Shown here one piece after another: positions 9,821-57,963 of a DNA stretch of 57,963 nucleotides (position 1 is the stretch's first letter; every line of letters starts with the position of its first letter). Position numbers and translations under genes: made by a program. Source of the stretch: Nitrospirales bacterium. GTDB taxonomy: Bacteria > Nitrospirota > Nitrospiria > Nitrospirales > UBA8639. The notes under the pieces are model-generated. The model was not told where the DNA came from. It saw only the letters and a program-made list of their open reading frames with translations, and made no database searches. The DNA is taken from positions 1 to 57,963 of the forward strand of contig JAHRAK010000123.1 in assembly GCA_020027535.1 (NCBI GenBank), given 5' to 3'.

Positions 9821-9840
9821 TCTTGCACTCCCCTCAATAC

Positions 9841-9864
9841 CCTTCGACTTCGCTCAGGGCAGGC
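9841..9864. repeat. 24-bp mobile-like repeat (copy A)
   Basis: CCTTCGACTTCGCTCAGG followed by GCAGGC. The same 24-mer is at 55721-55744 and, with its first base changed from C to A, inside hflX at 38883-38906. Confidence 0.8.
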
Positions 9865-35971: not shown

Positions 35972-36106
35972 GGGTTCTCCATGTTCGGCCATGCTTTTCT
36001 CGTTACCTCCCCACCAGCCTCTTTCTCTACCTCCCAACTTTTCCCTCTTCGGAAAAAGTTCCCGTCCTTACAAAGGAGGGGAACCGGCGGCGGGCCGCTC
36101 TCACGC

Positions 36107-38722: not shown

Positions 38723-40421
38723 GGTTCGACGTCCTGCTTCCGGAAGCCCCGGCAACCAAAGCCAACGACGGTTCCCCCCTCCAGGCCGTCTCCGCCACCG
38801 GCACATTCGATTCCAAGGCGTCGGTAATGGCGTCCCGTAGCGGGGCCATGGTCTCTTTCCGGAGAGCCGAGACACACAGGGCACTTCGACTTCGCTCAGG
38901 GCAGGCCTGAAAACGTCGATCGAGAATGTTCACGTCTTCCGGCGACAATTGATCGCATTTATTCATAACCAGCACCCGGGCCACGTGTTGCAACTCAAGT
39001 TCACGCAAGAGTCCTTCGACAACGTGTATTTGCTGATCACGATCCGACGCAGTCGCATCCACGACGTGCACCAGCACGTCAGCCTGGTGTAGCTCATCGA
39101 GCGTCGTGCGAAAGGCTTCCAGGAGATCCTGAGGCAGGTCTCGAATGAACCCGACGGTATCGGTCAGAATCACGTTCCGGCCTGAAGGAAGCCTGAACCG
39201 TCGATTGACGGTATCCAAGGTTTCAAACGGCTGATTTTTGGCCGAGACTCGGCTATTGGTCAAGGTATTCAGCAAGGTGGATTTCCCGGCATTCGTATAG
39301 CCGACGATCGACACGACCGGAGTACCCTGGCGCAAACGCCTGGGGCGTTGCTGCTCCCGTTGACGACTCAAATCCTTCAATTCACGTTCGAGATGATGAA
39401 TCCGATCCCGTACTCGTCGCAGATCGGTTTCCAGTTTGGTTTCGCCCGGCCCCCGGGCCCCGATGCCTCCTCCCAAACGGGAGAACGCCGTGCTGGATTG
39501 AGACAATCGAGGCAACAGATACTTGAGCTGCGCAAGTTCCACTTGAATTTTCCCGGCGCGGGAATGCGCCCGGCTTGCAAAAATATCCAGGATCAATTGC
39601 GTCCGATCGATGACCTTCAACTCGATCATCTCGGATAACGACCGGATCTGGGTCGGGGTGAGATCCCGATCGAAAATCAATAAGTCAGCCCCGCTTTGAA
39701 GCGCGTGGATGATCACCTCGGTAATCTTCCCCACCCCCAACACGTACTTGGAATTGATACGAGATAATCGTTGAACCACGGTTCCGACCACTTGAATGCC
39801 CTGCGACGTCGCCAGTTCCTGACATTCCCGCAACCGTTCTTCCTGGTCGGCCCGATTCCCCTCCGTGACACTGACCAGCAACGCGCTGGGTTCGCCGTCC
39901 GTTCGGCGAAGCGCCGGGGTTGCCTTGGAAATTTCAGCCTCCAGCGATTGCACGAAGTGATCACACCGGAACTGAAACGTCTGTAAGTTTTGCGGCGCCC
40001 ATGCCTCATACGCTTTCCCTTGCGTGTTGGGCGGCAGCAGGTGCGCTAACGAGATGGAAACGGGTTCTCCCCCGTCTCCCACGCCAAGCACCGCCATCAA
40101 ATCCAAGCGAAGCAGCGCAAGGTCGGTCAGGTCGTCTTTGGTTAACGGTTGATTGTTGAGATGCGTATGCACGAACCGAACGCCGCGCAATAACCGTGGC
40201 CCCGACCGGCTCCGCGCCAGTTGCGGGATCACCAACTGACGGTCCGTTCCGATGATGACGGATTCAATGATGCCCCGTCGATTGATCAACAGCCCGATTT
40301 GCCGTCGAATTTCATGCGACAATTCCGTGCAGGAGCGAGCCAACTCCGGAGAAATGATTTTTTCGACGGGTACGCGCCGGCGATAGAGACGTTCAAGCCG
40401 TGTAACCTGGCTGGGTTTCAA
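38715..40421 (-). CDS. hflX: HflX-family GTPase with an 8-residue repeat-derived insertion
   Basis: 568 residues, longer than usual HflX (about 430) through its N-terminal extension of about 190. HflX core: LDIFASRAHSRAGKIQVELAQL, GGIGARGPGETKLETDLR and the G domain, with GYTNAGKSTLLNTL (P-loop), DTVGFIRDLP (G3), MNKCDQL (G4) and CVSALRKE (G5-like). HflX splits ribosomes stalled under stress. Residues 506-513 (ACPERSRS) are exactly the translation of a 24-base repeat at 38883-38906 that also occurs between genes. It is the first gene of the nth-yicC-gmk-rpoZ-coaBC run. Confidence 0.92.
   Translation of the reverse strand: MKPSQVTRLERLYRRRVPVEKIISPELARSCTELSHEIRRQIGLLINRRGIIESVIIGTDRQLVIPQLARSRSGPRLLRGVRFVHTHLNNQPLTKDDLTDLALLRLDLMAVLGVGDGGEPVSISLAHLLPPNTQGKAYEAWAPQNLQTFQFRCDHFVQSLEAEISKATPALRRTDGEPSALLVSVTEGNRADQEERLRECQELATSQGIQVVGTVVQRLSRINSKYVLGVGKITEVIIHALQSGADLLIFDRDLTPTQIRSLSEMIELKVIDRTQLILDIFASRAHSRAGKIQVELAQLKYLLPRLSQSSTAFSRLGGGIGARGPGETKLETDLRRVRDRIHHLERELKDLSRQREQQRPRRLRQGTPVVSIVGYTNAGKSTLLNTLTNSRVSAKNQPFETLDTVNRRFRLPSGRNVILTDTVGFIRDLPQDLLEAFRTTLDELHQADVLVHVVDATASDRDQQIHVVEGLLRELELQHVARVLVMNKCDQLSPEDVNILDRRFQACPERSRSALCVSALRKETMAPLRDAITDALESNVPVAETAWRGEPSLALVAGASGSRTSNHE
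38883..38906 (-). repeat. 24-bp repeat inserted in frame in hflX (copy B)
   Basis: It covers codons 506-513 exactly on codon boundaries. It differs from the copies at 9841 and 55721 by one base (first base, plus strand, A instead of C). Confidence 0.8.
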
Positions 40422-40465: not shown

Positions 40466-40600
40466 TTCTTTTCCTCCCCTTTGTAAGGGGAGGTTAGGTG
40501 GGGTAGAAGTCCAACGGCGTCCATCGGGGCCGCTACCTAGCTAGGCACGATCCGCCCAGGCTCTACCTCCCCTGGCCCCTCCTTACAAAGGAGGGGAACA
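40466..40600. repeat. Pair of CCTCCTTACAAAGGAGGGG-type palindromes between tsaD and hflX
   Basis: The left unit has CCTCCCCTTTGTAAGGGGAGG and then GGTGGGGTAGA. The right unit, in the opposite sense, has CTCTACCTCCCCTGGC, then CCCCTCCTTACAAAGGAGGGG. The two halves form a larger inverted repeat across the 257-base gap. Related units occur at 36062-36084, 46393-46426 and 55709-55756. Confidence 0.7.
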
Positions 40601-54222: not shown

Positions 54223-54255
54223 GGTAGGTCGGATGAGCGTAGCGTAATCCGGCAT
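54223..54255. repeat. GTAGG-TCGGATTAGCG-type palindrome (copy 2)
   Basis: GTAGGTCGGATGAGCGTAGC, then GTAATCCGGC. Imperfect compared with 4022-4051. It follows the nuclease-like gene. Confidence 0.65.
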
Positions 54256-55226: not shown

Positions 55227-55272
55227 AAGAGCATTCAGGGCAGGCTTAACCCAACACTATTCTCACGGAATT

Positions 55273-55302
55273 GTTGGATTACGCTACGCTAATCCAACCT
55301 AC
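55273..55302. repeat. GTAGG-TTGGATTAGCG palindrome (copy 3)
   Basis: GTTGGATTACGC, then TACGCTAATCCAAC and CTAC. It is close to 4022-4051, with C to T changes on both arms that keep the pairing. Confidence 0.75.
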
Positions 55303-55368: not shown

Positions 55369-55647
55369 TTACGGGTTATGCCACAGGGCCCCTTCGTGTT
55401 CCGGATTAAACTGGTGCGTGAATTTCACCACGTCGCCATCTTTGATTTTCGATTCCACGGTACTGACTTTTTGATTCACCGTGACCATCAGTTCGCTTTT
55501 TTGCAGGAATTCCATTAACCCGCCCAGGGTTTCCGGATTTCCTTCCAATAATTCCCGCACGCTGACCGGCGCGGAAATCTCACATTGAATCTCCGGCTCG
55601 TCCACGCAAGGGAGCAGGACCTGCCCAAACACTCGTATCGTGACCAT
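55369..55647 (-). CDS. ThiS/MoaD-like ubiquitin-fold protein without terminal Gly-Gly
   Basis: 92 residues from the ATG at 55647, which has GAAGGAGG nine bases upstream; the ATG three codons earlier is too close to it. VTIRVFGQVLLP starts the first strand, VSVRELLEG a helix, and LMVTVNQKVSTVESKIKDGDVVKFTHQF the ending, as in ThiS/MoaD sulfur carriers. The true carriers end in GG; this ends WHNP, and 14 residues follow the last fold strand. It may be a non-carrier member, or it may need processing. A ThiF- or MoeB-like partner is not in the window. Confidence 0.65.
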   Translation of the reverse strand: MVTIRVFGQVLLPCVDEPEIQCEISAPVSVRELLEGNPETLGGLMEFLQKSELMVTVNQKVSTVESKIKDGDVVKFTHQFNPEHEGALWHNP

Positions 55648-55680
55648 GGTAAACATCCTCCTTCGATAAGACGGGCGGCC

Positions 55681-55756
55681 CTCTCACCCCGGCCCTCTCC
55701 CTCACCTCGCCCCTCCTTACCCTTCGACTTCGCTCAGGGCAGGCAAAGGAGGGGAA
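55681..55756. repeat. Composite repeat: palindrome with nested 24-bp insertion
   Basis: Left part CTCACCCCGGCCCTCTCCC is from the GGGAGAGGG family. Then GCCCCTCCTTAC (55709-55720) and AAAGGAGGGGAACA (55745 on) are the two halves of the palindrome seen intact at 40.57-40.60 kb. The 24-mer at 55721-55744 separates them. Confidence 0.8.
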
Positions 55757-55762
55757 CAGAGG

Positions 55763-57963
55763 CTACGGAAGGCTCGGCGGCAGTCCGGGGGATTCGTCCA
55801 GGACCTGAGCAATATGCTTGACGGCGGTGCCGTCGGGCAAGCCGTTCTTCAATTGAATCATGCAAGCTGGGCAACTCGTCGCCACAATATCCGCGCCACT
55901 TTGTTCGATCGCCCGTCGCTTTCGTTCGAAAATTTGTTGTGCGGTGTCATACTCCTTCATGATGTAGGTTCCCGCTCCGCCCGCACAGCGGTCGGCGTCC
56001 TGCATTTCGACGTAGTCGAGACCCGGGGTCGTAGCCAACAAATGCCGGGGCTGGGAAGCCACCCCCGCCGCGCGCAGATGACAGGACGAATGATACGTGA
56101 CCTTGCGCGTCTCCTTCGCCTGAGCCGGTTTCGAGCGCTGAGGGTCCAACTCCATGACGTATTCCGCGATATGCTTCACGTTTCGGGAAACCCGCCGGGC
56201 TCGTCCCTCCTCGGGTTCACCCTGGAAAAGCTTGGCGTAATCCTTGAGCGCCAGCGTACAGGAGGCACAGCCCGTGACGATCACGTCATACCCGGCAAGA
56301 TTGTCGACGTTGTAACGAGCTCCTTCCTTGGCCAAGGCACGATGCCCATACGTTTCAATGGGCGTCCCGGAGCATCGTTGCGGCGGGAGGTCCGGGGTCA
56401 CGCCGTATCGCTTCAGGACGTTGATCACGGCGTCACCCACTCCGTCATCAAAGTAATTGGCGGCGCACCCGTGAAAATACGCGACCTTCGGTGGGGAGCC
56501 GGCTTCCCTCGTTCCGTGACCGTCTTCGTCTCCCGGAACGAGAGCGGGAGGAGACGACACACAAAGCGCGTGATGCCGTTCACGCAACAGCGACGTCGCC
56601 AGGCGCGGCAGTTTCATGTTCCAGGGAAGCCGTGCACGCTCGGAGAGTCGCGCCAGGAACGGGCGCAACACCACTTCACCGATTTTCCGAATAAGAGGCC
56701 GATCCCAGAGCGCTTGCGTTTTCGCGGCCAGCTTGATCAACCTGCCAAAACGCTCCTGTTGCGTGTGCAGGGCAAAGATTTTCCCGGCGAGCGCGTTCGG
56801 ATGGTCCGCCCGTCGTTGCAGGATCAGCTCGGACACGTCCACGTCCGCCGGGCAGATGGTCCGGCACGATTTGCAATTCAAGCATGCTTCCACGACGCGC
56901 TTGGACTCCAGATAGCTGTAGTCCGGGGCGGTCACGATTTCATACCATCCCCGGGAACTCATGTCCTCGGATTGAAACACGTCGTACACCGGGCAGACCG
57001 AATTACATTTCGCACACGTGGCACACGATTTCCCCAACCGCTCAAAGTCGATGTGCTCGGTAAACGCGGTCTCACTGATTTTCACGCCGGGATTCAAAAT
57101 CCCGGCCGGGTCCATCGCGTGCTTGACCTGCACGAAGAGACCATACAATTCTTCTCCGAACATCCGCCTGACCATTTCGGCACGGACACGGCCATCCCCA
57201 TGTTCCCCGCAAATGGAACCTTGGAACCGATTGAGAATCGTGTCATGCACCTCATAATATGTTTCCACCATGCGCTGAAAATCCCCCTCGTCATTCACGT
57301 CCAACAACGGCACGACGTGGGCATTGCCGTTCCCGATATGTCCGAAAATCGCCACCCGGACCTTCGCGGGACCGAAGACCCCGTCCAGATAGCGAATCAA
57401 CTCGCCCATGTGTTCCGCGGCCACGACCACGTCATCGACGTAGTTGATGGGCTTCTTCCTGGCGTCGTACCGGTATAACGTGGGATAGAGAGCTTTTCGA
57501 GCTTTCCAAAGATTCCGTTGGTGCTCCAAGTCGGTCGCGACGACGGGATCACCGGTCAGACGATAGTGCCGGCAGGCCGCCTGCAGTTGCGCAATCCCGC
57601 CGTGGTCTCCCGCTTGATCGAATTCAATGAGCAGGGTTGCCGCGGCGTCGCCGGGAATCCGGTACTGCGACCGGCCGATGAGGTCCAACGTGTTGGCATC
57701 CATCACTTCCAGGGCCAACGGATCAAGCCGCAATAAGTGATGCACCGCCTCGCCCATTTCTTCGAGATGCCGGAAATGAAGCATGCCGGTCACGGTCGAG
57801 CGCGGGCGATCGACGAGCCGGATCGTCGCCTCGCTGAACACGCCTAACGTACCCTCACTCCCTACAAACAATTTGGGAAGGTCAAAGATCCCTTGCGTGA
57901 GGCCTTCCGCCACGTCAAAGAGGTTATACCCCGCGCTGTTTTTACTGACGTGTGGGCGCTTGG
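55763..57963 (-). CDS. GlcD/D-lactate dehydrogenase-type FAD oxidase fused to Fe-S/CCG domains, N-terminus beyond the window
   Basis: At least 732 residues; the frame is open to the window edge (KNSAGYNLFDVAEGL before the first start-like codon), so the FAD-binding PP-loop is missing. FAD-oxidase C-terminal half: LPKLFVGSEGTLGVFSEATIRL, GNGNAHVVPLLDV, CGEHGDGRVRAEMV. Then two [4Fe-4S] ferredoxin sites, CATCAKCNSVCPVYD and CLNCKSCRTICPADVD. Then two CCG-type regions, altered to RCSGTPIETYG and RCAGGAGTYI. It is a 2-hydroxyacid dehydrogenase of the glycolate or D-lactate type on one chain, passing electrons to the membrane. Members with all parts fused exist. Upstream context is not visible. 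Confidence 0.85.
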   Translation of the reverse strand, partial: KRPHVSKNSAGYNLFDVAEGLTQGIFDLPKLFVGSEGTLGVFSEATIRLVDRPRSTVTGMLHFRHLEEMGEAVHHLLRLDPLALEVMDANTLDLIGRSQYRIPGDAAATLLIEFDQAGDHGGIAQLQAACRHYRLTGDPVVATDLEHQRNLWKARKALYPTLYRYDARKKPINYVDDVVVAAEHMGELIRYLDGVFGPAKVRVAIFGHIGNGNAHVVPLLDVNDEGDFQRMVETYYEVHDTILNRFQGSICGEHGDGRVRAEMVRRMFGEELYGLFVQVKHAMDPAGILNPGVKISETAFTEHIDFERLGKSCATCAKCNSVCPVYDVFQSEDMSSRGWYEIVTAPDYSYLESKRVVEACLNCKSCRTICPADVDVSELILQRRADHPNALAGKIFALHTQQERFGRLIKLAAKTQALWDRPLIRKIGEVVLRPFLARLSERARLPWNMKLPRLATSLLRERHHALCVSSPPALVPGDEDGHGTREAGSPPKVAYFHGCAANYFDDGVGDAVINVLKRYGVTPDLPPQRCSGTPIETYGHRALAKEGARYNVDNLAGYDVIVTGCASCTLALKDYAKLFQGEPEEGRARRVSRNVKHIAEYVMELDPQRSKPAQAKETRKVTYHSSCHLRAAGVASQPRHLLATTPGLDYVEMQDADRCAGGAGTYIMKEYDTAQQIFERKRRAIEQSGADIVATSCPACMIQLKNGLPDGTAVKHIAQVLDESPGLPPSLP

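Follow-up and report, generated by a model that had tools for sequence, protein, structure and literature searches.

In the window, the whole 57,963-nucleotide stretch of Nitrospirales DNA analysed here, two palindrome halves that are directly joined at one place are separated by exactly 24 bases at another, which raises the question whether the 24-mer is a mobile unit in its own right and, if so, what moves it. The source genome (G000; metagenome-derived, 2.23 Mb in 140 contigs) belongs to a genus with the records Nitrospira sp. bin75, SB0677_bin_15 and Nitrospirales bacterium, a Nitrospira-like group that is probably sponge-associated, to judge from these record names.

The split palindrome and its empty sites

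As first split, the filled site reads GCCCCTCCTTAC (55709-55720), 24 bases and AAAGGAGGGGAACA (55745-55758), while at about 40575-40599 intact GCCCCTCCTTAC is joined to AAAGGAGGGGAACA, and in this respect the sequence matches what the earlier note had described. In G000, where copy counts derive from sequence searches and stretches, the 24-mer core gave 65 matches with at most 2 mismatches compared to 1 for a reversed-pattern control, and the 46 exact copies of the outer palindrome, termed A, compare to 0 matches for its reversed control. Three further G000 contigs carry the identical filled structure, the insert having the same position and a length of 24 bases in each, and together with the control counts this shows that the structure did not arise by chance.

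Outside the repeat, the flanks of the 40.6-kb and 55.7-kb sites are unrelated. The two sites are paralogous copies of one dispersed repeat rather than alleles, so that the empty/filled pair proposed within a single genome does not stand in that form; a true empty site is instead found in the congener G006. The 95-aa gene to the left of the 55.7-kb site is present in 14/14 genomes of the genus, and the same two-gene interval of G006 contains CCCCTCGCCCCTCCTTACAAAGGAGGGGAACA followed by a flank homologous to that of G000, the alignment being shorter by exactly 24 bases at this point. Since the left flank beyond the repeat has diverged between the two genomes, orthology leans on the right flank and both neighbour genes, and judged by these anchors G006 holds the orthologous empty site. 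The other two copies in the window, at 38.9 and 9.8 kb, likewise have exact -24-bp counterparts there. The proposal that the 24-mer inserts as a unit is thereby upheld, since aligning the flanks to relatives yielded clean empty sites for all three window copies, the gain being 24 bases each time and nothing being duplicated.

Table 1. Features of the window that bear on the 24-mer
Feature	Position	Strand	Remarks
Left half of host palindrome A	55709..55719	+	GCCCCTCCTTA
24-nt element	55720..55743	+	hairpin CCCTTCGACTTCGCTCAGGG then CAGG tag; reverse strand: CCTG + hairpin
Target C and right half of host palindrome A	55744..55758	+	CAAAGGAGGGGAACA
Uninterrupted palindrome A, paralogous empty copy	40575..40599	+	46 exact copies genome-wide
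Neighbour gene on the left, 95 aa; ThiS-like, under the Pfam cut-off	55369..55656	-	synteny anchor
Right neighbour gene, FAD-linked oxidase/Fe-S protein	55763..57913	-	synteny anchor
Second window copy of the 24-mer	38882..38905	+	in frame in HflX-type GTPase gene, +8 aa (ACPERSRS)
HflX-type GTPase ORF, 568 aa	38715..40421	-	PF13167, PF16360, PF01926; carries in-frame 24-mer
Third window copy of the 24-mer	9840..9863	+	upstream of small conserved reading frame

One C can be assigned to either side of the insert, an ambiguity pointed out earlier that covariation helps to settle. Bases 1 and 20 of the unit vary together, as C-G or T-A. Among 37 distinct copies from viral contigs, the base 5' of CCTTCG and the base 3' of CTCAGG form C-G 20 times, T-A 9 times, C-A 8 times and T-G 0 times (Fisher p = 2e-4); copies within the genus point in the same direction, though less strongly, at cluster level (p = 0.045), C-A being common. 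Covariation thus assigns the C to the unit, for which YCCTTCGACTNCGCTCAGGRCAGG (24 nt, 55720-55743) is the best delimitation; it is placed 5' of a target base, in most cases C (here 55744), and leaves no target duplication.

Tag, fold and candidate transposases

The element is composed of a 20-nt imperfect hairpin, YCCTTCGACTNCGCTCAGGR, and the 4-nt tag CAGG (CCTG on the opposite strand). With 24 nt and 65 copies it resembles REPs, which are palindromic repeats of 20-40 bp in high copy, although its fold energy is weak, and its precise empty sites without target site duplication are as expected for a product of IS200/IS605-type single-strand transposition. Folded alone as single-stranded DNA, the unit reaches -0.8 to -1.6 kcal/mol, no better than shuffled sequences, hence the assignment of the hairpin leans on symmetry and covariation and not on energy. 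Instead of the terminal GTAG or CGTC tag of REPs, well-preserved copies carry CAGG/CCTG. The base preceding CCTG is G, which is not an obvious outcome of a simple GTAG-style guide rule, under which the guide tetranucleotide predicts the cleavage dinucleotide (PMC8266576). Rfam returned no match to the 24-mer above gathering scores and two chance matches. A MITE of a DDE insertion sequence was also considered and rejected, since terminal inverted repeats with a duplication of at least 2 bp would be expected, whereas the net gain is exactly 24 bp with none duplicated.

Two of the repeats that host the 24-mer, B and C, are GTAG-tagged REPs in this genus. In congeners, REP B flanks genes that match NF047646, the model for REP-associated tyrosine transposases (RAYTs), above the cut-off (L123, L163), and REP C flanks a divergent RAYT type matching below it (L161, L162); kind-1 RAYTs occur in G008, G010, G012 and G013 and are broken in G006. 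The presence of genuine RAYTs in congeners means that such machinery exists in the genus. REP B is also found inside the RAYT open reading frame of L163 (at ~1844), as is REP C inside that of L162 (at ~1482), both apparently in frame. The search for RAYT/TnpA_REP genes proposed in the earlier note was thus successful in the congeners but neither in G000, where Y1_Tnp gave no match even at E <= 5, nor for a RAYT flanked by the 24-mer, none being found among the RAYT/Y1 loci examined in the genus and family. Inverted flanking of a RAYT gene is accordingly a property of REPs B and C and, at these loci, not of the 24-mer. At the same threshold of E <= 5, Y1_Tnp matches are also missing from G001, G003 and G005, though these genomes hold many 24-mers. 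Between inverted pairs of 24-mers no RAYT was found, the intervening genes in L015, L021/L022 and L366/L367 being unlike transposases.

On balance, these observations tip modestly in favour of a non-autonomous, REP-like mobile element that is moved by a single-strand (HUH/Y1-type) transposase and whose composites with other repeats spread via their hosts. The 24-mer inserts as a unit, usually beside a C and without target duplication, and this would happen by single-stranded-DNA catalysis through a RAYT-type HUH/Y1 transposase that acts in trans and has since been lost or not yet been recognised. Given the anatomy and the absent duplication, the simplest assumption is a HUH enzyme that acts in trans or has been lost. 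Against it count the copy-rich genomes free of Y1, the lack of a RAYT flanked by the 24-mer, the CAGG/CCTG tag, the weak hairpin and the pattern at 9.8 kb described below. The distinct insertion mechanism that a fixed 24-base gain had been thought to support was not demonstrated, as a hairpin with a 4-nt tag and no duplication is the expected product of REP/IS200-type single-strand transposition.

Like the GTAG palindromes of RAYT (TnpA_REP) systems, to whose type B and C with their flanked RAYT genes belong, the 24-mer is a short, multicopy palindrome that ends on one side in a 4-nt tag, lies mostly outside genes and has no coding capacity of its own (PMC2817692; PMC3733652; PMC8266576). It differs from them in the CCTG/CAGG tag, the lack of a flanked RAYT among those found, the weak hairpin, its movement as a single unit and its nesting in other REPs. 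A tentative alternative would make CCTG-tagged hairpins a third REP tag class, present in several lineages and in viral contigs and moved singly by an as yet unrecognised enzyme that prefers the loops of other REPs, with precise exit being possible. Among the genomes searched, the 24-mer reaches high copy numbers in this genus only; elsewhere in the phylum its occurrence is sporadic and at low copy, with 24 of 296 genomes positive overall, and it is also present in 38 viral contig stretches.

Host repeats, composites and loop position

At 55.7 kb the 24-mer sits within the loop of another dispersed palindrome, A. Since the stem of A is intact, the composite could itself spread, which would explain why A[24] recurs and why comparable composites exist in REPs B and C, and this spread would be carried out by the host repeats' own transposases. 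A survey of insertion points covering 157 copies from five genomes places the 24-mer at recurrent, fixed points: in A between CTCTACCTCCCCTnnCCCCTCCTTAC and AAAGGAGGGGAA, in the related A', in B at two separate points on either side of the GTAGC in GTAGGTCGGATTAGC-GTAGC-GTAATCCGACA, in C between CGGGACGGCAC and TCCGGCCGTCCCCTAC, and in E, which is not obviously palindromic, between TCATTC and GTTGACAAT. Insertions into its own kind lie between CTTCGCTC and AGGGCAGGC, and about 60 copies fall outside the named host classes by the criteria used.

Other arrangements of these repeats were observed as well. More REP B copies lie near the 55.7-kb site (window positions 54223-54253 and 55271-55301), and at 36036-36081 a different palindrome, AACTTTTCCCTCTTCGGAAAAAGTT, is nested in a copy of A. 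An A variant with a C-to-G change, CCCGTCCTTAC, is frequent in the genome and accompanies the AACTTTTCCCTCTTCGGAAAAAGTT insert in those few copies for which the flanks were inspected. In L227 and L230, both from G008, inverted REP B copies contain the hairpin of the 24-mer minus CAGG, which replaces part of the loop in a manner resembling loop exchange.

The 24-mer occurs in the internal variants ACTA, ACTT, ACTG and GCTT, and the variant goes with the host class: ACTA is found in 25 of 26 copies at the first point in B, ACTT in 6 of 6 at the second, and ACTG in 9 of 12 in E. None of 5000 permutations reached the observed association, in a test that pools copies, including any inherited jointly by different species. 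This coupling points to few founding insertions that spread as composites with their hosts, a weaker alternative being that the variant is coupled to target choice. Loop occupancy would accordingly appear to reflect a set of composites spread as units rather than one event, and the many identical filled sites would not be independent insertions.

Whether the loops were chosen by the mover is a separate matter. Five of the six non-self insertion classes (A/26, A'/11, B/15, B/20 and C/11) fall within the terminal loop, with A'/7 as the sixth lying 2 nt off, which could mean that the mover prefers unpaired hairpin loops in single-stranded DNA and that nesting in REP loops is repeated target choice; since the B loop was entered at two distinct points, a single event would not suffice. 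There are precedents for such positions. REPs inserted within palindromes are mentioned in passing for A. variabilis, T. roseum and H. neapolitanus (PMC3733652, section 7), where likewise a REP-class element sits inside another palindrome, whereas here the targets are themselves REPs, drawn from several families, and empty sites are shown at orthologous positions. Mobile DNA also enters the centre of REP hairpins when IS elements insert at the symmetry axis, as in the case of ISPsy8 with a 3-bp duplication (PMC1525189), but those are full insertion sequences, in contrast to the non-coding 24-mer, which duplicates nothing. For unique sites, a general rule of hairpin targeting is nevertheless contradicted by the 21 single-copy target clusters, which show no hairpin enrichment compared to random C positions in the same stretches (combined p = 0.50), and self-insertions lie at the base of the 3' arm, outside the loop. 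Moreover, insertions that spare the stem leave the host still able to spread, so that the loop position in host repeats may be a matter of survivorship rather than targeting, which accounts for the same data. Loop-targeted insertion is thus rather doubtful, though far from negligible.

Gain, loss and recombination

Within the HflX-type gene, the 24-mer is found at an identical codon position in G000, G004, G005, G010 and G012, has undergone partial deletion in G013 and G008 and additional invasion in G003, G001 and G011, and is absent from G006 and the outgroups G007, G002 and G009. With the outgroups empty, the copy is read as a gain, and a tree of three proteins that places G006, with weak support (56), basal to the copy-rich clade agrees with a single gain here. 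The 9.8-kb interval, 110 bases when filled and 86 when empty, is filled in G000, G005, G003, G004 and G001, exactly 24 bp shorter in G006 and also devoid of the copy in G010 and G012, a distribution that requires losses in the latter two or repeated gains. In L135, an intergenic stretch orthologous to the 55.7-kb site, the centre of the 24-mer holds yet another palindrome (CCTGAGCG-TAAGGCGCAACACGCCTGA-AGTCGAAGG), and a related palindrome lies inside the 24-mer of the same orthologous stretch in L139, giving a third level of nesting in both.

Could the 24-mer then be ancestral at these sites and have been excised precisely in G006 and others? The copy missing from G010 and G012 within a mostly filled clade suggests some precise losses, and the 55.7-kb site is compatible with either polarity among the species compared. 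As a general account this is nonetheless improbable, since every outgroup species is empty at the HflX-type gene and G006 has only 3 exact copies of the 24-mer. No better placed is the idea that repeats acquired the nesting from one another through template switching, gene conversion or recombination instead of transposition of the 24-mer: the composite copies are nearly identical, the variants follow the host class and conversion could also yield both, but the exact 24-bp differences in unique sequence, in the HflX-type gene and at 9.8 kb, lie where there is no repeat partner, making this explanation very improbable. An assembly artefact, for which the 140 contigs of a metagenome-derived genome and the shortness of the repeats might speak, can be practically dismissed because genomes assembled independently of G000 contain this composite as well (22 stretches), the insertion in the HflX-type gene is common to several species and ordinary reads span a 48-bp structure.

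In-frame insertion into a protein gene, here that of the HflX-type GTPase, recalls the Rickettsia palindromic elements as summarised in PMC3733652, although these, compared by that description, belong to another host and the 24-mer is mostly extragenic. In the literature searched, with its limited share of subscription journals, no paper containing the 24-mer motif or its variants was found, nor a description that combines a REP-like unit lacking GTAG, its nesting in true REPs and empty sites at orthologous positions.

The spread of REPs is described as poorly understood (PMC8266576). The genus offers clean filled/empty pairs for single palindromes, one of them in frame in a protein gene, as well as sets of composites with one REP carried inside another, and so catches repeat spread in the act. 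With its exact junctions, the defined 24-nt unit provides a testable single-stranded substrate, and if a dedicated enzyme were found, the REP/RAYT scheme would be extended to a new tag.
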